DNA from: Telluria aromaticivorans
Lineage (GTDB): Bacteria; Pseudomonadota; Gammaproteobacteria; Burkholderiales; Burkholderiaceae_D
Direction of reading: 5' to 3'
Assembly: GCF_013003915.1 (NCBI RefSeq)
Contig: NZ_JABAIV010000007.1
Location: 124,001 to 188,000 of the forward strand
DNA length: 64,000 nt
Shown here: one piece after another, positions 1-42,047 of the stretch
Layout: every line of letters begins with the position of its first letter
How positions within the stretch are numbered: the stretch's first letter is position 1
Translations under genes and position numbers: made by a program
The notes under the pieces: model-generated
Database searches by the model: none
What the model saw: only the letters and a program-made list of their open reading frames with translations
Told to the model about the DNA's origin: nothing

Positions 1-1086
1 ACGGTGCTGACCGACGTGTATCACATCACCCTGCTGTTCAGCTTCACGCGCGCCTACTTTTTGGTAGACATGGAAGTGCCGTCGGCGTTCGTGGGCTTCC
101 TGCGCAGCCTGATGCCGCGCAAGCCGCGCAGCGAAATCTATACCGTGCTGGGCCTGCAGAAGCAGGGCAAGACCCTGTTCTACCGCGACTACCTGCAGCA
201 CCTGAAACACAGCTCGGACCGCTTCCAGATCGCGCCCGGCATCCGCGGGCTGGTGATGCTGGTGTTCGAACTGCCGTCCTTCCCCTATGTGTTCAAGGTG
301 ATCAAGGATTTCTATCCGCCCCCGAAGGACACCACGCGCGCGCTGGTCAAGGAAAAATACTTGCTGGTGAAGCACCACGACCGCGTCGGGCGCATGGCAG
401 ATACCCTCGAATATTCCGACGTCGCCTTCCCGCTGGCGCGCTTTTCCGAAGAGCTGCTGGCCGAACTGAAGGAATTCGCGCCCTCACTGGTCGAGATCGA
501 AGGCGAGCGCATTATCGTGCGCCACCTGTATATCGAGCGCCGCATGGTGCCGCTGAATATTTATCTCGGCAATGCGCAGGAACAGGGAAACGAGGAACGC
601 ATCGAGCACGGCGTGATCGAATATGGGAATGCGATCAAGGACCTGGTGGCGGCGAATATCTTCCCCGGCGATATGCTGTATAAAAATTTCGGCGTCACCC
701 GCCACGGCCGCGTCGTGTTCTATGATTACGATGAGATCGAGTACCTCACCGACTGCCATTTTCGCGATATCCCGGAAGCGCGCAACGAAGAAGACGAGAT
801 GTCGGCAGAACCGTGGTACCCGATCGGCAAGCACGACGTCTTCCCGGAACAATTCGGCCGCTTTTTGCTTGGAAATCCCAGGATTCGTCACTACTTTATG
901 AAACACCACGCGGACTTGCTTACCCGCGATTATTGGCAGTCCCACAAGGACCGCATATTGGCGGGCGTCGTCGACGACGTCTTCCCGTACCCGCAGCAGA
1001 TCCGCTTTTGCAATCACCAGGCTATCCCCACCCCGGCGCCGCAGCATTCACCTGCACAGCCAACCATTTTGGAGAACACACAATGA
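1..1086 (+). CDS. aceK: Isocitrate dehydrogenase kinase/phosphatase, C-terminal part (5' cut by window edge)
   Basis: The frame is open at the left edge, so only about 361 C-terminal residues of a protein usually near 580-600 residues are present. AceK phosphorylates and dephosphorylates isocitrate dehydrogenase in the cytoplasm, switching carbon between the TCA cycle and the glyoxylate shunt. The visible part contains the family kinase core: the nucleotide-binding stretch APGIRGLVM, the [10 protein letters not shown] strand with its ATP-binding lysine, and the catalytic region [13 protein letters not shown] followed by VVFYDYDEI. The C-terminal tail is Pro/Ala-rich and unconserved in appearance. 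The stop codon overlaps the start of the next gene in an ATGA arrangement, so the thiolase is probably translationally coupled to aceK. Confidence 0.95.
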
Positions 1087-7110: not shown

Positions 7111-7162
7111 ACTTGGAGTGGCCAATGCCAATGGCATTGGCCACGCCTTCGCCGGGATGACG
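7111..7162. repeat. Intergenic hairpin repeat, family B copy 1
   Basis: On the minus strand the unit reads CATCCCGGCGAAGGC, then a hairpin GTGGCCAATGCCA-T-TGGCATTGGCCAC, then TCCAAGTT. Copy 2 lies at 49324-49376. The stems differ at two base pairs but remain paired in both copies. Just upstream, near 7065-7083, CCGTCG-TTCCGGCCAAGTT repeats the tail module of family C. Confidence 0.85.
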
Positions 7163-29268: not shown

Positions 29269-30528
29269 ATGCAGCAAATGAGGGAACAAGTGCTCGTCAT
29301 CGGCGGCGGCGTGGTCGGCCTGGCCTCGGCCTGGTGGCTGGCCGAAGCCGGCTACCGCGTCACCGTGCTCGAACGCGCCCCGGAAGTCGGCAGCGGGTCC
29401 AGCTACGGCAATGGCGGGCAGCTGAGCTACCGCTACGTGTCGCCGCTGGCCGACGCGGGCGTGCCGCTGAAAGCCCTGCAGTGGATGTTCCAGGACACCG
29501 GTCCGCTGCACTTCCGTCCCGAAGCCGACCTGCGTCAGTACCGCTGGCTGGCCAGCTTCCTGGCCCATTGCCGCGCCGACGTCAACCGCAAGACCACGGC
29601 CAAGCTGCTCGAACTGGGCGAACTGTCGCGCCAGGGCATGAAGCAGCTCGAAGTGACCATCCCGCTCGACGAATTCGACTGGCGCGACGCCGGCAAGCTG
29701 GTGGTCTACCGCTCGCGCGACCTGTTCGTGAAAGCGGCCGGCAAGGCCGGCGCCGGCGAAATCTGGTCCCCGAGCGAATGCGCCGCGCGCGAACCTTCGC
29801 TGGCGGCGGCCGAACCGCTGCTGGCCGGCGGCATCTATAACAGCGGCGAAGCGGTGGCCGACTGCCACGCTTTCTGCCTGGCGCTGGCCGATCGCCTGCG
29901 CGCCCATCCATGCTTCCAGGGGTTCGTGGGCGGCGAGGCGCGCCGCCTGCTGGTCGACGGGGGCCTCATCACCGGCATCGAAGTGCAGGATGGCGCGGAC
30001 ACCCGCACCATCGCCGCCGACAGCTATGTGCTGGCGGCCGGCATCCAGAGCCGCACCCTGTCCGACACCGTCGGCATCACCCTGCCGCTCTACCCGCTCA
30101 AGGGCTACAGCCTGACCGCCCCGATCCGCGCCGACGACGTGGCGCCGGAAATCAGCGTCACCGACTTCGAGCGCAAGGTGCTCTATGCGCGCATCGGCGA
30201 CAAGCTGCGCGTGGCCGCCATGGTCGACATGGTGGGCGAAGACCTGAGCCACAACCAGAAACGGGTGGACAGCCTGACCCGCCAGGTGAAGGAAACCATG
30301 CCGCGCGCGGCCGACTACTCGAAGCTGTCGGTCTGGGCCGGCCTGCGCCCCGCCACCCCGAGCAGCGCCCCGATCATCGGCGCCACGCCGTACGCCAACC
30401 TGTGGCTGAACGTCGGCCACGGCCCGCTGGGCTTTACTTTCGCCTGCGGCAGTGCCGCCCTGCTGGCGGGCGCGATGCAGGGTGAGGCGCCGCCGTTTTC
30501 GCTCGACGGGTTGACCCTGCGGGGCTGA
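29269..30528 (+). CDS. dadA: D-amino acid dehydrogenase, DadA family
   Basis: A 419-residue FAD-dependent oxidase-fold protein (DAO family). It oxidises D-amino acids, chiefly D-Ala, to keto acids and ammonia, passing electrons to the respiratory chain at the inner membrane. Seen: dinucleotide motif VIGGGVVGLASAWWLAEAG (residues about 9-27), ERAPEVGSGSSYGNGGQLSY (the DadA-type signature), and the C-terminal GLRPATPSSAPIIG with NVGHGPLGFT. The first ATG (29269) has a weak AGG; ATG at 29278 is an alternative. It closes the cell-wall block: D-Ala released by DacB, LdcA and the VanX-type dipeptidase would end here as pyruvate. Confidence 0.92.
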   Translation: MQQMREQVLVIGGGVVGLASAWWLAEAGYRVTVLERAPEVGSGSSYGNGGQLSYRYVSPLADAGVPLKALQWMFQDTGPLHFRPEADLRQYRWLASFLAHCRADVNRKTTAKLLELGELSRQGMKQLEVTIPLDEFDWRDAGKLVVYRSRDLFVKAAGKAGAGEIWSPSECAAREPSLAAAEPLLAGGIYNSGEAVADCHAFCLALADRLRAHPCFQGFVGGEARRLLVDGGLITGIEVQDGADTRTIAADSYVLAAGIQSRTLSDTVGITLPLYPLKGYSLTAPIRADDVAPEISVTDFERKVLYARIGDKLRVAAMVDMVGEDLSHNQKRVDSLTRQVKETMPRAADYSKLSVWAGLRPATPSSAPIIGATPYANLWLNVGHGPLGFTFACGSAALLAGAMQGEAPPFSLDGLTLRG

Positions 30529-30571
30529 CCGCGGTCCGTGCCCCCGCCGGAAATGGCGGATAATGGCGCCC

Positions 30572-31012
30572 ATGTCCAAAACGACCACACCCGGACCCTG
30601 TCCTTGTGGCGGGCCGTCGCTGGCCGCCTGCTGCGGCCCCTTCATCCTGGGGGAAGCCCTGCCGCCGACGGCAGAGGCGCTGATGCGCTCGCGCTATACC
30701 GCCTACAGCCAGAAGAACGAGTCTTACCTGATGGCGACCTGGCACCCCAGCACCCGTCCGGGCGAGCCGATCATCGACCAAAAAGAGCCAATCCGGTGGC
30801 TGGGACTTGAGGTAAAATCTGCTTTACGTTTACGTCAACGTAAAGTAAATTTGCCGGATGATCCAGACAGTGACACCGTTGAATTCGTCGCCCGCTTCAA
30901 GGTGGGAGGACGGGCGCACCGGCTGCACGAAGTGAGCCGTTTCCTGCGCGAGCCCGATCCACAGACCGGGGCGCCGCGCTGGTATTACGTGGACGGCAGT
31001 TTCCCGACATAA
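30572..31012 (+). CDS. YchJ-family (UPF0225) SEC-C motif protein
   Basis: A 146-residue protein with an N-terminal SEC-C zinc motif (CPCGGPSLAACC), MRSRYTAY and the conserved VEFVARFKVGG, HEVSRF and WYYVDGSF blocks of the YchJ family, whose function is unknown. An in-frame ATG 9 nt upstream is also possible. Odd: residues ALRLRQRKVN near the middle are written with AT-rich codons (TTA, CGT, CAA, AAA, GTA, AAT), unlike the CTG/CGC usage around them. That stretch is a perfect DNA palindrome (see 30822-30845). The gene therefore seems to carry the control region of the downstream leucine operon. Confidence 0.87.
   Translation: MSKTTTPGPCPCGGPSLAACCGPFILGEALPPTAEALMRSRYTAYSQKNESYLMATWHPSTRPGEPIIDQKEPIRWLGLEVKSALRLRQRKVNLPDDPDSDTVEFVARFKVGGRAHRLHEVSRFLREPDPQTGAPRWYYVDGSFPT
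30822..30845 (+). promoter_or_regulatory. LiuR-like operator/promoter embedded in ychJ
   Basis: Perfect 9-bp arms CTTTACGTT (30822-30830) and AACGTAAAG (30837-30845) around TACGTC. LiuR, the MerR-type regulator of leucine/isovalerate operons in proteobacteria, is known to bind ACGT-rich palindromes of this style. TTTACG (30823-30828) and TAAATT (30846-30851) are 17 nt apart and could be the -35 and -10. mccB starts about 300 nt downstream. No liuR gene is in the window, so the regulator assignment is inference. Confidence 0.6.
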
Positions 31013-31017
31013 CAGAA

Positions 31018-31136
31018 GGGACCTTGAAGAACCGTCGCGAGCGGCGGCAGTGTTGGCCGAGAAGCGCAGCTGTACGATAGGTACAGCGAGCATCGCAGGG
31101 CGACAATGCAACGCGCAGTAGGTTATTCAAGGTCCC
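31018..31136 (+). promoter_or_regulatory. Candidate structured 5' leader RNA of mccB
   Basis: The whole ychJ-mccB gap can fold. Outer arms GGGACCTTGAA (31018-31028) and TTCAAGGTCCC (31126-31136) are a perfect 11-bp pair. Inside are GTCGC/GCGAC, a perfect hairpin GCTGTAC-gatag-GTACAGC, and a small GCGA-gca-TCGC. The closing stem ends 17 nt before the mccB ATG. It has no T-run and matches no riboswitch class known to me. Confidence 0.5.
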
Positions 31137-31153
31137 AACAGAAGAGACAAGAC

Positions 31154-32761
31154 ATGCCCCTTATCGAGAGCAAACTCAACCCGCGCGGCGAAGACTTCAA
31201 GGCCAATGCGGCAGCCATGCAGCTGATCGTGGACGACCTGCGCGCGAAAGTCGCCCAGGTTGCACTCGGTGGCGGCGAAGCGTCCAGCGCCAAGCACGTC
31301 GCACGCGGCAAGCTGCTGCCGCGTGACCGCGTGCAGATGCTGCTCGATCCGGGCACGCCCTTCCTCGAATTCTCCCAGCTGGCCGCGTACGAGATGTATG
31401 ACGGCGCGGCGCCCGCCGCCGGCATCATCACCGGCATCGGCCGCGTGGCCGGCCAGGAATGCGTGATCGTCTGTAACGACGCCACCGTCAAGGGCGGGAC
31501 CTATTACCCGATGACGGTGAAAAAGCACCTGCGTGCCCAGGAGATCGCCGAGCAGAACAAGCTGCCCTGCATCTACCTGGTCGACTCCGGCGGCGCCAAC
31601 CTGCCGAACCAGGACGACGTGTTCCCGGACCGCGACCACTTCGGCCGCATTTTTTATAACCAGGCGAATTTGTCTGCGAAAGGCATCCCGCAGATCGCGG
31701 TCGTGATGGGCTCGTGCACCGCGGGCGGCGCCTACGTGCCGGCGATGAGCGACGAATCGATCATCGTCAAGGAACAGGGCACCATCTTCCTGGGCGGCCC
31801 GCCGCTGGTAAAAGCCGCGACCGGTGAAGTGGTCACGGCCGAAGACCTGGGCGGCGGCGACGTCCACACCCGCCTGTCGGGCGTGGTCGACCACCTGGCG
31901 CAGAACGATTTGCATGCGCTGTCGCTGGCCCGCACCATTGTGTCGAACCTGAACCGGGTCAAGCCGGTTCAAGGCGCGCTGCGCCCATCGCTTGAGCCTC
32001 GCTATGCGCCGGAAGAACTGTATGGCGTCATCCCGGTCGACACCCGCAAGCCCTTCGACGTGCGCGAAGTGATTGCCCGCGTGGTCGACGGCAGCGAGTT
32101 CGACGAGTTCAAGGCGCGCTACGGCACCACGCTGGTATGCGGCTTCGCCCATATCTATGGCATGAAGGTCGGCATCATCGCGAACAACGGCATCCTGTTC
32201 TCGGAATCGGCACTGAAGGGCACCCATTTCATCGAGCTGTGCTGCCAGCGCAAGATCCCGCTGGTCTTCCTGCAGAACATCACCGGCTTCATGGTGGGCC
32301 GCAAATACGAAAACGAAGGCATCGCCCGCAACGGCGCCAAGATGGTGACCGCGGTCGCTACCGCCTCGGTGCCGAAGTTCACCGTCATCATCGGCGGCTC
32401 GTTCGGCGCTGGTAACTACGGCATGTGCGGCCGTGCTTTCTCGCCGCGCTTCCTGTGGATGTGGCCGAACGCGCGCATCTCGGTGATGGGCGGCGACCAG
32501 GCCGCATCGGTGCTGGCCACCGTGAAACGCGACGGCATCGAGGGCAAGGGTGGCCAGTGGTCGGCGGAGGAAGAAGCCGCCTTCAAGCAGCCGATCAAGG
32601 AACAGTACGAGCACCAGGGCCACCCGTATTACGCGTCCGCGCGCCTGTGGGACGACGGCGTCATCGACCCGGCCGATACCCGCACCGTGCTGGGACTGGG
32701 CCTGTCGGTTGCGCTCAACGCGCCGATCGAGGACACGAAGTTCGGCGTGTTCCGGATGTAA
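31154..32761 (+). CDS. mccB: Methylcrotonyl-CoA carboxylase, carboxyltransferase (beta) subunit
   Basis: A 535-residue subunit that moves CO2 from carboxybiotin to 3-methylcrotonyl-CoA in leucine breakdown. Two crotonase-like halves are seen. The N-terminal half has [34 protein letters not shown] and the [15 protein letters not shown] stretch. The C-terminal half has [30 protein letters not shown] and [11 protein letters not shown]. These are diagnostic for MCC-beta rather than propionyl-CoA carboxylase. The start is ATG 31154 after AGAAGAGA; an in-frame upstream ATG lies inside the leader stem and is less likely. It is the first gene of the liu/bio operon. Confidence 0.95.
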
Positions 32762-32774
32762 AGGGAGCTTTACA

Positions 32775-33560
32775 ATGGAATACCAGACCCTCACCATCGC
32801 CATCGACGACAAGGTGGCCGCGATTACCCTGAACCGCCCGGACGTGCGCAACGCCTTCAACGAGCACGCCATCGCCGAACTGGCGCTGGCTTTCGACGAG
32901 CTTGGCCGCATTGATGCCGTACGCGCTATCGTGCTGGCCGCGAACGGCCCGGCCTTCTGCGCCGGTGCGGACCTGAACTGGATGAAGAAGATGGCCGGCT
33001 ACTCGCACAGCGAGAACCAGGAAGACGCCGCGCGCCTGGCCGACATGCTGCGCACCATCTACCTGTGCCCGAAGCCCACTGTCGCCAAGGTGCAGGGCGA
33101 CTGCTACGCCGGCGGCATGGGCCTGGTCGCGGCCTGCGACATCGTAGTAAGCAGCGAGGTCGCCAACTTCTGCCTGTCCGAAGTGAAGCTCGGCCTGATC
33201 CCGGCCACCATTTCGCCCTATGTCATCAAGGCGATGGGCGAGCAGGCGGCGCGCCGCTATTTCCTCACCGCCGAACGCTTCGATGCGCGTGAAGCCCACC
33301 GCATCGGCTTCGCGCACGAAGTGGTCGCGGCGGACATGCTCGACGCCTCCGTGGCCGGCATCGTGAAGTCCTTGGTGACCAACAGCCCGAATGCCGTGGT
33401 AGAGGCGAAAAAACTGGTGCGCGAAGTCGTGGGCCAGCCGGTCAACGACGCGCTGCTGGCGGACACCGCCAACCGCATCGCCGCCATCCGCGCCTCGATG
33501 GAAGGAAAAGAAGGCGTCGCCTCCTTCCTGGAGAAGCGCAAGCCGACCTGGCTGAACTGA
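32775..33560 (+). CDS. liuC: Enoyl-CoA hydratase, probably methylglutaconyl-CoA hydratase
   Basis: A 261-residue crotonase-fold protein. Seen: LNRPDVRNAFN, FCAGADLNWMKKM (oxyanion loop; the NWMK variant is typical of liuC), CYAGGMGLVAACDIV, and the LSEVKLGLIPATISPYV segment. It hydrates 3-methylglutaconyl-CoA to HMG-CoA between MccAB and HMG-CoA lyase. The start is well fixed by AGGGAG 7 nt upstream of the ATG, 13 nt after mccB. The role is inferred from the strict leucine-operon context as well as sequence. Confidence 0.92.
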   Translation: MEYQTLTIAIDDKVAAITLNRPDVRNAFNEHAIAELALAFDELGRIDAVRAIVLAANGPAFCAGADLNWMKKMAGYSHSENQEDAARLADMLRTIYLCPKPTVAKVQGDCYAGGMGLVAACDIVVSSEVANFCLSEVKLGLIPATISPYVIKAMGEQAARRYFLTAERFDAREAHRIGFAHEVVAADMLDASVAGIVKSLVTNSPNAVVEAKKLVREVVGQPVNDALLADTANRIAAIRASMEGKEGVASFLEKRKPTWLN

Positions 33561-33568
33561 ATACTGGA

Positions 33569-34915
33569 TTGAACTTGAAACCGCAAACCTCTTCCGACTG
33601 GATCGCACGCAGCCTGCGCAGCGTGTGGCACCCGTGCACCCAGATGCAGCACCACGAAGAGGTGCCGCTGATCGCGGTCAGCCACGGCAAGGGTCCGTGG
33701 CTGTACGACCATGAAGGGCGGCGCTACCTGGACGCCATCAGCTCCTGGTGGGTCAACCTGTTCGGCCACGCCAACCCACGCATCAACGCGGCCCTGAAAG
33801 ACCAGCTGGACAAGCTCGAACATGCGATGCTGGCCGGCTTCACGCACGAACCGGTGATCGAACTGTCGGAGCAGCTGGCGGCCCTCACCGGCCATGCGCT
33901 GGGACACGCCTTCTATGCGTCCGACGGCGCCTCGGCGGTCGAAATCGCCATGAAGATGAGCTTTCACTCGTGGCGCAATGCCGGCCATGCGGGCAAGCAG
34001 GAATTCGTCTGCCTGCAGGGCAGCTACCATGGCGAGACCATCGGTGCGCTCAGCGTCACCGACGTCCCGCTGTTCAAGGATGCCTACGGCCCGCTGCTGC
34101 GCGCCTCGCACGTGGTACCAAGCCCCGATGCGCGCAACGCCATTGAGGGCGAGTCGGCGCAGGACGTGGCGCGCCGGGCTATCCTAGACGTGCGCGCCCT
34201 GTTCGAGGCACGCGGCGAACGCATCGCCGCCATCATCGTCGAGCCGCTGGTGCAGTGCGCGACCGGCATGGCGATGTACGACCCGCTCTATCTGGAACTG
34301 CTGCGCGAGCTGTGCGACCAGCACCATGTGCACCTGATCGCCGACGAAATCGCCGTGGGCTGCGGCCGCACCGGCACCTTCTTCGCCTGCGAGCAGGCCG
34401 CCATCTGGCCAGACTTTTTATGCCTGTCGAAAGGCATCAGCGGAGGTTACCTGCCGCTGTCGCTGGTACTGACCAGCGACGAGATCTACCAGTCCTTCTA
34501 CAGCGAAGACATCACGCGCGGCTTCCTGCACTCGCACTCCTACACCGGCAACCCGCTGGCCTGCCGCGCGGCGCTGGCGACGCTGCAGATCTTCGAAGAC
34601 GACGACGTGTTGAACCGCAACCGCGAGCTGGCGACAAAACTGACCGTGGCGCTGGCGCCGCTGGCCGAGCACGACCGCGCGCGCCACTTCCGCCAGCGCG
34701 GCATGATCTTCGCGTTCGACGCGGTCGAACCCGACCCGAGCCGCGCCTCGAGCTTCTCGCGCCGCTTCTTCACCACCGCGACGGAGAACGAACTGCTGCT
34801 GCGCCCGATCGGCCGCACCGTCTACCTGATGCCGCCGTATATCCTGGACGACGAGGAAATCGCCGGCCTGGCCGAGCGCACCCAGCGCGTCTTCGAATCG
34901 GTGATCGCGGGCTAA
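33569..34915 (+). CDS. bioA: Adenosylmethionine-8-amino-7-oxononanoate aminotransferase (DAPA synthase)
   Basis: A 448-residue class-III PLP aminotransferase that makes diaminopelargonate from KAPA and SAM in biotin synthesis. Seen: [13 protein letters not shown] and [14 protein letters not shown] (both typical of BioA), [25 protein letters not shown], and PLP Lys288 in [13 protein letters not shown]. No ATG is available near the N-terminus. Two TTG codons are candidates, 33569 and 33575; TGGA sits at better distance from 33575. It begins 8 nt after liuC, so the biotin genes continue the leucine operon rather than starting a separate transcript. Confidence 0.94.
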
Positions 34916-34919
34916 TTGC

Positions 34920-36104
34920 ATGAACCTCATCGCCGCCATCGACCGCAAGCTCGCCACGCTCGCCGCGCACAGCCTCACGCGCCGCCTGCGTGTCGCCGAC
35001 AGCGCCTGCGCTCCGCGCCAGGTCGTCGATGGCCGCCCCATGCTGGCCTTCTGCAGCAACGATTATCTCGGCCTGGCGGCGCACCCGCTGGTGATCGAAG
35101 CGTTGCGCGAAGGCGCCAGCCGCTACGGCGCCGGCAGCGGCGCCTCGCACCTCGTCAGTGGCCACAGCCGCGCGCACGCGCTGCTGGAAGAGCGCCTGGC
35201 CGAGTGGATGTCGCCGCATATCGAGAAGGCCAGGGCTCTCTACCTGTGCACCGGCTACATGGCCAACCTGGCCATCCTCACCGCCCTGGGCGCCGACCTT
35301 GACGCGATGATCTTCTCGGAAGCGCTGAACCACGCCTCGCTGATCGACGGTGCGCGCCTGGCGAAGGCCGGCGTGACGGTCTATCCGCATGGCGACGTCG
35401 AAGCACTCGACAAGCTGCTGGCCGCCAGCAGCGCCAGTACGAAAATCGTCGTTACCGACAGCGTCTTCAGCATGGACGGCAACCTGGCGCCGCTGCCCGA
35501 GCTGCTGGCGCTGTGCGAACGCCATGGCGCCTGGCTGGTGGTGGACGACGCCCACGGCTTCGGCGTGCTGGGACAGAACGGCCGCGGCGCGCTCGAACAT
35601 TTCGAACTGCGCTCGCCGAACCTGGTCTACATGGGCACCCTGGGCAAGGCAGCCGGCGTGGGCGGCGCCTTCATCGCCGCGCATGCCAGCGTGATCGAAC
35701 TGCTGGTGCAGCGCTCGCGTCCCTATATCTACACCACGGCCGCGCCGCCCGCGCTGGCGCATGCGCTGCAGGCCAGCCTCGACATCATCGGCGGACCCGA
35801 AGGCATGCAACGCCGCGCCCACCTGGCGGCGCTGGTGGACAGCCTGCAGGGCGCGCTGCGTTTAAAGCGCTGGCAGCTGGCGGCTTCAAGCACTGCGATC
35901 CAGCCGATCATCATCGGCAGCAACGAGGATGCGCTGCGCGCCGCGGCCGGCCTGCACGAGCAGGGCCTGTGGGTGCCGGCGATCCGCCCGCCGACCGTGG
36001 CGGCGGGCACCGCGCGCCTGCGCGTGACCCTGTCGGCCGCACACACTTTTGAGGAAGTGGCGCTGCTGGCAGGGGCGCTCAACGACATCGAAAGGTCCAC
36101 ATGA
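34920..36104 (+). CDS. bioF: 8-amino-7-oxononanoate synthase (KAPA synthase)
   Basis: A 394-residue PLP-dependent alpha-oxoamine synthase that condenses pimeloyl-ACP/CoA with alanine. Seen: [21 protein letters not shown] (the glycine-rich substrate region), [12 protein letters not shown] (PLP-binding Asp and His), and PLP Lys243 in [11 protein letters not shown]. It starts 4 nt after the bioA stop and its own stop overlaps the bioD start. Length and motifs are normal. The alternative, 2-amino-3-ketobutyrate ligase, is excluded by the biotin context. Confidence 0.94.
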
Positions 36105-36922
36105 ACAACCTGAACGAACCCGACCTGCCGCTGGCGCTGACGCCGGTCGTCACCGTGCCGATGCCTGGTGGCGTGGTCACCGCCGAGGCGCAGCCGGAAG
36201 CACTCGCGCATGACGCCATGCCCTCGCGCTTCTGCTGCTTCGTCACCGGAACCGATACCGAGATCGGCAAGACGCTGGTTTCCAGCGCCATCCTGTACAA
36301 GCTGGCCCACAGCGGCCGCCGTGCCTGCGGCATGAAGCCGGTGGCGGCAGGCGCCACCATGGTCGACGGCGAACTACGCAACGAGGATGCCGATATGCTG
36401 CGCGCAGCCGGCAACGTGCACCTGCCCTCCAGTATCACCACTCCCTTCATGCTGAAGGAACCGGCCGCGCCGCACATCGCCGCCGCTTTGGAAGGCGTGA
36501 CCATCGAAGCTGTGCCGATCCTGGCCGCCTTTACCGAAATCCAGGCGGCGTCCGACGCCGTGGTGGTCGAAGGGGTGGGCGGTTTCCGCGTGCCCTTCAA
36601 CGACGACTTCGACAGCGCCGACCTGGCCGCGCAACTGAACCTGCCGGTGGTGCTGGTGGTGGGCCTGCGCCTGGGCTGCATCAGCCATGCGCTGCTGACG
36701 GTCGAAGCGATTGTCGCGCGCGGACTGGTGCTGGCCGGCTGGGTCGCCAATACGGTCGACCCGGACATGCGCTTCGAGGCTGAGAACATCGAGGCGCTCG
36801 AACAGCGCATCCCGGCGCCGCTGCTGGGCCACGTGCCACGCCTGACCGAACCCACGGCCGCCGCCGCCGCCGAATTCATCGACCTTGCGGGACTGCCGGG
36901 CTGGCATTCCCCACGTCTGTAA
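36101..36922 (+). CDS. bioD: Dethiobiotin synthetase
   Basis: A 273-residue ATP-dependent carboxylase closing the ureido ring of dethiobiotin. The P-loop GTDTEIGKT is at residues 50-58, followed by [16 protein letters not shown] and GWVANTVDP. The protein has an N-terminal extension of about 40 residues relative to E. coli BioD, rich in Pro/Val/Ala. An internal ATG (Met40, at 36218) would give the ordinary length. The ATG at 36101 overlaps the bioF stop (ATGA), which favours the longer form by coupling. Confidence 0.93.
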
Positions 36923-36950
36923 TCAAAGAATAGCTACTCAAGGAACCACC

Positions 36951-37985
36951 ATGTCCCAACTTAACACCGTCGCCCTGCACCGCCCTGTCGCCGCCATCAA
37001 GCAGGCAGAGAACGCCACCTGGCCATTGGCCGACGTGCTGGCGCTGTTCGAACTGCCGTTCACCGAGTTGATGCACCGCGCCCAGACCCTGCACCGCGCG
37101 CACTTCCCTGACGGCGACGTCGAGCTGGCCACCCTGCTGTCGATCAAGACCGGCGGCTGCGAGGAAGACTGCGGCTACTGCCCGCAGGCCGCGCGTTACG
37201 ACACCGGCGTCGAGGCCAAGAAGATCCTCGACCTCGACACCGTGCTCGATGCGGCGCGCCAGGCCAAGGCCAGCGGCGCCACCCGCTTCTGCATGGGCGC
37301 CGCATGGCGCAGCCCGAAGGAGCGCGACATGGAAAAGGTCGAGACCATGGTGCGCGAGGTAAAAGCGCTGGGCATGGAAACCTGCGCCACCCTCGGCATG
37401 CTCGAAGAAGGCCAGGCCGAACAGCTCAAGCGCGCGGGTTTGGACTACTACAACCACAACATCGACACCGCGCCCGACTTCTACGACAACGTGATCTCGA
37501 CCCGCGAATACCAGGACCGCCTGGACACCCTGGGCCGCGTGCGCAGCGCCGGCCTGAAGGTCTGCTGCGGCGGCATCGTGGGCATGGGCGAGACGCGCGA
37601 ACAGCGCGCCGGCCTGATCGCCCAGCTGGCCAACCTGAACCCCTACCCGGAATCGGTCCCGGTCAACCACCTGGTTCAGGTGGAAGGCACGCCGCTGCAC
37701 GGCATCGAGAAGCTCGACCCGATCGAATTCGTGCGCACCATCGCGGTGGCGCGCATCACCATGCCTGAGGCGCGCGTGCGCCTGTCGGCGGGCCGCCGCG
37801 AACTGGGCGAGGCCGTGCAGGCGATGTGCTTCATGGCCGGCGCCAACTCGATCTTCTATGGCGACAAGCTGCTCACCACCGGCAACCCGGAAGCGGACGA
37901 CGACCGCGTGCTGCTCGAGAAGCTGGGCCTGAAGACCCGCGCGGCAACCCTGGATTCGGCGCCCAAAGCCGCTTGCGCCTGCTGA
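36951..37985 (+). CDS. bioB: Biotin synthase
   Basis: A 344-residue radical-SAM enzyme inserting sulfur into dethiobiotin. The SAM cluster CxxxCxxC appears as C-EED-C-GY-C followed by PQAARYDTG. Further motifs: [44 protein letters not shown], and [10 protein letters not shown] with the conserved Arg near the [2Fe-2S] cluster. The ATG at 36951 has AGGA upstream; an in-frame ATG at 36885 lies inside bioD and is unlikely. It is the last biotin gene before mccA; no bioC or bioH is present in the window. Confidence 0.96.
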
Positions 37986-38050: not shown

Positions 38051-40075
<2,025 letters not shown>

Positions 40076-42011: not shown

Positions 42012-42047
42012 AAAAAAGCCGACAGTTTTCACTGTCGGCTTTTCTCT
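42012..42047. terminator. Bidirectional rho-independent terminator between mvaB and tRNA-Pro
   Basis: Perfect stem GCCGACAGT (42018-42026) and ACTGTCGGC (42031-42039) with TTTC loop. AAAAAA precedes it and TTTTCTCTT follows, so it can end both the rightward liu/bio operon and the leftward tRNA transcript. Confidence 0.9.

Follow-up and report, generated by a model that had tools for sequence, protein, structure and literature searches.

A predicted LiuR operator within the coding sequence of ychJ in Telluria aromaticivorans and related genera

The ychJ–mccB locus

We analysed a 64,000-nucleotide stretch of the Telluria aromaticivorans genome (hereafter the window; contig NZ_JABAIV010000007.1, positions 124,001 to 188,000). 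Near its middle, ychJ is followed by a short repeat element and then by mccB, liuC, four bio genes and mccA:

30572 to 31012, plus strand: ychJ coding sequence, host of the candidate operator (146 aa; alternative ATG at 30563; Pfam YchJ_M-like, E 3.7e-23)
31016 to 31140, strand not assigned: repeat element with terminal inverted repeats GGGACCTTGAA...TTCAAGGTCCC, between ychJ and mccB
31154 to 32761, plus strand: mccB (liuB), the presumed first target (Pfam Carboxyl_trans)
32775 to 33560, plus strand: liuC, enoyl-CoA hydratase family
33569 to 37985, plus strand: bioA, bioF, bioD and bioB, filling the liuC–mccA interval (named by recognition of their sequences)
38051 to 40075, plus strand: mccA (liuD), with biotin carboxylase domains and a biotinyl domain

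ychJ starts 43 nt after an FAD dehydrogenase gene, and mccB stands directly after ychJ in all 62 genomes of the genus. We take the names mccB, liuC and mccA to apply from recognition of the sequences and from gene order and neighbourhood, the NCBIfam matches of mccB and liuC lying below the curated cut-offs. The repeat element, of ~120 bp, has 11 matches in the genome counting itself; a similar-looking element occupies the ychJ–mccB gap in locus L029, and different inverted-repeat-like inserts are found there in L038 and L095. The bio genes stand between liuC and mccA, the gene for the biotin-carrying carboxylase subunit, and they also follow liuC in L195–L198 and L200. Biotin synthesis may share LiuR control.

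A three-repeat palindrome in the ychJ reading frame

Within ychJ, we distinguished four overlapping features:

30812 to 30847, plus strand: constrained block of 12 codons (mean synonymous identity 0.997 in the 62 genus genomes, 0.983 in 97 genomes)
30813 to 30818, plus strand: -10-like hexamer TAAAAT, separated by 4 nt from the 22-bp operator downstream
30822 to 30845, strand not assigned: candidate LiuR-type operator (core 22-mer at 30823 to 30844; ACGT at 30826, 30832 and 30838)
30824 to 30844, plus strand: operator-coded peptide LRLRQRK (residues 85–91), in a segment missing from the YchJ of operator-less genera

The initial annotation of this DNA, made from its letters, had described a perfect 9+9 palindrome within ychJ, about 300 nt upstream of mccB. 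Positions 30822–30845 indeed read CTTTACGTT-TACGTC-AACGTAAAG, with 9+9 arms around a 6-bp spacer, in frame inside the gene, and from the end of the core to the mccB ATG we measured 309 nt, a distance inflated by the ~120-bp repeat element that sits between them. The core is preferably given as the 22-mer TTTACGTTTACGTCAACGTAAA, which holds ACGT three times at 6-bp steps. Judged from the sequence, the two halves of the 24-mer match at 11 of 12 base pairs.

Palindromes of this kind are common in the window: we counted 26 perfect 9+9 cases with a gap of at most 8 (nested registers counted), against 5–8 in each of five order-2 Markov shuffles. Symmetry alone therefore proves nothing, and we rejected it as proof of function. 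Longer perfect palindromes occur at 7118–7144 and 42014–42043 (13+13, with gaps of 1 and 4). The weight of the ychJ site lies in codon bias, conservation and motif identity rather than in symmetry.

Codon choice and conservation reveal constraint on the DNA

The codons read in frame at the site are TTA CGT TTA CGT CAA CGT AAA GTA AAT. Across eight window genes, ychJ included and the operator block left out, TTA makes up 2 of 313 Leu codons, CGT 17 of 191 Arg codons, CAA 7 of 95 Gln codons, GTA 10 of 230 Val codons and AAT 9 of 81 Asn codons; AAA, with 27 of 101 Lys codons, is less rare. The description of the whole run as rare codons thus holds for TTA, CGT, CAA, GTA and AAT, and less well for AAA. 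GC3 is 0.00 over 30812–30850 as against 0.77 in the remainder of ychJ.

YchJ was detected in 62 of 62 genus genomes. Fifty-eight of these carry the exact 22-mer, and the remaining four comprise three close variants and L069, in which a six-base in-frame deletion has cost one operator repeat and left two. We extended the comparison to 97 genomes, namely these 62 and 35 loci of four nearby genera (five genera in total), where the exact 22-mer is present in 88 and TTA CGT TTA CGT is invariant (97/97). As the genomes are related, the counts are not independent events, and the rest of the same gene served as the control.

Synonymous sites do not vary freely in these relatives. Synonymous identity over the 97 genomes was 0.983 within codons 30812–30847 and 0.602 in the other ychJ codons, which bears out the proposal that nucleotide-level constraint overrides codon preference here. 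The seven operator codons show zero synonymous variants in the 97 genomes; their replacements are Gln to Lys (8), Lys to Gln (6) and Lys to Asn (1), and one two-codon deletion is the sole operator-codon change that removes an ACGT repeat. Outside 30812–30847, the majority residue is coded by a single codon at just 1 of 129 positions. Amino acids therefore vary while synonymous sites are fixed, a pattern not accounted for by constraint on the protein. In 35 loci that lack the operator, synonymous identity was 0.459 inside the corresponding codons and 0.472 outside, indicating no constraint there. The nucleotide constraint that marks an intragenic operator is thus found inside this coding sequence, and the earlier observation of a constrained site is confirmed, on evidence stronger than first described.

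The same motif recurs at liuR and at acyl-CoA genes

LiuR has been described as a MerR-family protein that represses the use of branched-chain amino acids (PMC3223726). One study assigns it 103 regulons in its table and 104 in its text (PMC5343134).

In the genome studied here, a MerR-family gene (G000:C22:121281-121679; Pfam MerR_1) lies ~2.3 kb before the window and 33 kb upstream. We take it to be liuR from its gene neighbourhood and by recognition; among its NCBIfam matches there was no LiuR family model, and those seen were to other MerR-family regulators, below cut-offs. LiuR was present in 23 of 23 operator-bearing genomes tested and also in 23 of 32 tested without the operator, so its presence is not specific.

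The exact pattern TTNACGTNNACGTNNACG occurs at six places in the 5.2-Mb genome, whereas the reversed control occurs at none. Five of the six are upstream of liuR, in the gap between liuR and the next gene, in ychJ, before icmF and before a short-chain dehydrogenase gene; the sixth is G+C-rich and possibly a chance match. The gene next to liuR encodes an acyl-CoA dehydrogenase, presumed to be ivd, and the motif stands before it. The motif also stands before icmF, which passes its NCBIfam cut-off. In L163 (1501–1572), a LiuR-type site lies directly before icmF (fused isobutyryl-CoA mutase), suggesting icmF as a regulon member.

Over 16 genomes, the pattern gave 82 rows against 16 for the control, with zero in one genome of genus g20. 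A looser 16-mer, with up to two mismatches, gave 12 and 12 rows against 11 and 11 for the control, hardly above it, so that only the exact three-repeat pattern is telling. Three things expected of a LiuR regulon are found in this genome: a liuR-type gene, the same motif at liuR and at acyl-CoA genes, and a site upstream of a gene of branched-chain breakdown (mccB). The LiuR assignment first proposed by inspection gains support from the LiuR-like MerR gene and from the matching motif at four other places.

The site coincides with an extra segment in YchJ

A total of 136 non-genus genomes had a YchJ match, and we examined 73 of them (38 with the site, 35 without). The 35 loci without it come from 23 other genera of the family; none of them has the pattern in ychJ, and all have a shorter YchJ protein. 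The stretch running from the W of WLGLEV to VEF spans 17–21 residues in these, compared with 24–34 where the site is present. Genera g2 and g10 also carry the ychJ site, with similar flanks. Among 45 loci from named records, 18 have the site (Massilia, Rugamonas and one Burkholderiales MAG) and 27 lack it, including Herbaspirillum, Noviherbaspirillum, Paucimonas, and Herminiimonas and Undibacterium MAGs. Among named YchJ proteins, the nearest comes from Massilia yuzhufengensis (91%).

Structure prediction placed the segment between two strands. A solved YchJ (9vxg) has an eight-residue gap opposite RLRQRKVN; the second-best structure match (2jq5) shows just a two-residue gap near the segment, which counts against an insertion. 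In an AlphaFold model (window plus named loci; mean pLDDT 83.5), the segment falls between strands 74–83 and 100–111, block means drop to 59 for residues 81–90 and 69 for residues 91–100, and a short helix is drawn at residues 85–90 with low confidence. An earlier structure model gave the same strands within one residue, with residues 86–91 below 50. Viewed together with the genus comparison, this suggests that the operator DNA entered YchJ as an in-frame insertion between two strands. The title of PDB entry 9vxg describes YchJ as a ROS-sensing transcription factor protecting Salmonella; the operator's host protein may thus itself be a regulator.

Separation of the two halves of the liu cluster

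In the compact gene order, the upstream half consists of liuR, an acyl-CoA dehydrogenase gene (ivd), aceK, a thiolase gene and an acyl-CoA dehydrogenase gene, and the order continues with ychJ, (an acyl-CoA synthetase gene), mccB, liuC, the bio genes and mccA; in some genomes, genes of this series are missing or outside the stretch examined. The aceK gene (isocitrate dehydrogenase kinase/phosphatase) is second after liuR within the liu cluster, in other genera too; it covers L162 5254–7083, reaching into window positions 1–1083.

In the window genome, the first liu half ends at ~4305 and ychJ begins at 30572. All 15 core genomes that have both genes on one contig show a liuR–ychJ distance of 21.7–46.3 kb, and in g2 it is 142.8 kb; the 22 operator-less genomes measured all fall within 2.0–8.7 kb. 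These figures cover 15 of the 20 core genomes and 22 of the 23 LiuR-bearing genomes that lack the operator, the two genes being on different contigs in the others, and leave aside 9 genomes without a LiuR match.

Genus g10 combines the operator in ychJ with a compact cluster (L128 and L129; liuR–ychJ 6.5 and 6.9 kb). In both loci, an acyl-CoA synthetase gene stands between ychJ and mccB. This arrangement weakens the idea that the operator arose to compensate for the splitting of the operon: separation was evidently not its original reason, and the operator may have been in place beforehand and made the split possible.

On the MccB tree, the distribution of the operator requires three changes, and one origin was not rejected (AU p 0.095, 0.284 and 0.223; tree of 38 of 74 rows, a subset of core genera, with the long-branch row g18 left out). 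A single gain is therefore neither established nor rejected on this tree.

Promoter-like signals at the site

The constrained block begins about at TAAAAT, and the preceding codon, GAG, is also kept (93/97). We inspected 99 ychJ sites, 96 of them core and 3 from g2 and g10: the hexamer is exactly TAAAAT in 82, TAAAAA in 9, TTAAAT in 4, TAGAAT in 3 and shifted in one. Upstream of liuR, 13 of 30 loci have a TACAAT-type hexamer (12 TACAAT, 1 TACGAT) that precedes the first repeat by 2–4 nt, while 17 of 30 did not match this spacing; these are raw counts without a shuffled control. The ychJ site so appears to share a geometry found before liuR in part of the loci. At the sites between liuR and the next gene, TATGAT or TATCAT lies downstream of the operator, mostly by 7–8 nt, in 11 of 30 loci (raw count).

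No -35 element was recognised for the ychJ site, and a sigma-70 consensus scan of 30500–31200, limited to 16–18 nt spacers, returned zero promoters. We rejected a candidate promoter with a -35 of TTTACG inside the operator and a -10 of TAAATT downstream, the downstream hexamer not being conserved in relatives; by eye, the bases downstream of the operator are not conserved as a -10 in these. Classical MerR activator sites overlap a promoter spacer of 19–20 bp (PMC5045206). The ychJ site does not have that arrangement of hexamers flanking the operator at MerR spacing, its -10-like hexamer lying upstream. In 97 genomes the ychJ–mccB gap measures 8–142 nt (median 28; at most 30 nt in 54 and at most 50 nt in 92), leaving little room for a promoter there. 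We infer that a promoter may lie inside ychJ, with its start region covered by LiuR. This internal promoter is less sure than the operator, because no -35 was recognised and the scan found no promoter.

How the site may act

Taken together, these observations make it very probable that ychJ carries, in frame, a predicted LiuR operator that would control mccB-liuC-bioAFDB-mccA, the distal half of a split liu operon. On this explanation, RNA polymerase would start at a promoter inside ychJ using TAAAAT as its -10; LiuR, bound immediately downstream where transcription presumably begins, would block it; and an intermediate of leucine, isoleucine or valine breakdown would release LiuR. The operator DNA would have been gained by in-frame insertion at a point between two strands of YchJ, which would make the peptide LRLRQRK a by-product of the operator, and the distal half of the former liu operon would have been free to move tens of kb from liuR with LiuR control kept.

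The main rival to an internal promoter is a read-through roadblock, in which LiuR bound in ychJ would mainly stop polymerases arriving from upstream of the gene. The scan without a promoter fits this reading, as do the 43 nt that separate ychJ from the FAD dehydrogenase gene and the position of the g10 operator inside a compact cluster. A roadblock, however, has no need of TAAAAT, about where the constrained block starts, nor would it call for the spacing of this hexamer to be that seen before liuR in 13 of 30 loci; we consider it unlikely. That the box belongs to some other regulator with an ACGT-rich site would agree with LiuR binding here being a prediction from sequence, but five of the six exact sites fall at liuR (before and after it), ychJ/mccB, icmF and the short-chain dehydrogenase gene, and we hold this to be very unlikely.

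A hairpin in the ychJ–mccB transcript, acting in processing or attenuation in place of a DNA operator, has even less probability. As RNA, the palindrome could form a stem, which in many relatives would be extended by TCTGC/GCAGA, and each of the five outermost pairs matches in 69 to 95 of 96 sites. However, the ACGT repeats (intact in 96, 96 and 95 of 96 sites) have changed less than most outer pairs, one inner pair is non-complementary in 89 of the 96, and upstream of liuR and icmF these repeats are set in different flanking sequence. (These pair and repeat counts cover 96 of the 97 core loci; L100, whose first repeat is one base off, was inspected separately.) Least likely of all is that LRLRQRK matters for YchJ, its codons being kept for that reason or by chance and the likeness to LiuR boxes reflecting an inert site. 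Inert, unconserved intragenic sites are reported to be common for E. coli PhoB (PMC10294691), and the short, low-confidence helix at residues 85–90 could hint at a role for the peptide; against this, amino acids change where synonymous sites are fixed, the reverse of protein constraint, and the segment is absent from YchJ elsewhere.

With LiuR control from within ychJ as the preferred explanation, we think it rather likely that operator and -10 box were gained together as an in-frame insertion in a conserved gene and fixed lineage-wide, so that the DNA preference of LiuR would dictate part of YchJ, and that this switch let the liu halves separate by 20–140 kb while staying co-regulated.

Significance and relation to known systems

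The ychJ case offers some 100 genomes as replicates and dozens of site-less relatives as controls. DNA readout seems here to override codon choice, even adding residues to a protein, which cautions that lineage-specific protein loops need not mean protein function. It also suggests a route by which an operon may split without loss of regulation, the distal half keeping an operator inside a gene that accompanies it. An operator gained as an in-frame protein insertion was not found among the matches listed from the open-access literature, which is weak evidence of absence.

The arrangement resembles the LiuR regulon of Proteobacteria, in which a MerR-family gene stands beside an acyl-CoA dehydrogenase gene, sites lie at the regulator gene and before genes of acyl-CoA metabolism, and liu genes are targets (PMC5343134, PMC3223726, PMC7238569). 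It differs in that the site for the mccB half lies within ychJ, seemingly as an in-frame insertion, and none such is described in the accessible parts of these papers. A repressor operator within a coding sequence is known from gal OI inside galE of E. coli, which forms a pair with an external operator and lies in the first gene of the operon under its control (PMC4693257). The ychJ site, by comparison, occupies a gene upstream of its presumed targets, adjoins what would be an internal promoter and makes the protein longer. Conserved intragenic sigma-54 promoters of E. coli likewise drive the next gene through a long leader over coding sequence, without a repressor operator or an in-frame insertion as far as the available part of that report describes them (PMC4591121).

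Palindromic DNA in frame in protein genes is also seen in the Rickettsia palindromic elements, which are repeated and ~150 bp long (PMC10969869), unlike the single ~22-bp regulatory-sequence site at one place in ychJ. A dispersed repeat of the Rickettsia type was considered and does not fit, as the exact motif has six places in the genome, five of them at LiuR-type targets. Finally, the PhoB sites of E. coli are, like this one, transcription factor sites within genes, but are reported as unconserved and inert (PMC10294691), whereas the sequence of the ychJ site has stayed almost unchanged. Binding sites inside genes are often written off as noise; ychJ provides a clean natural counter-case.
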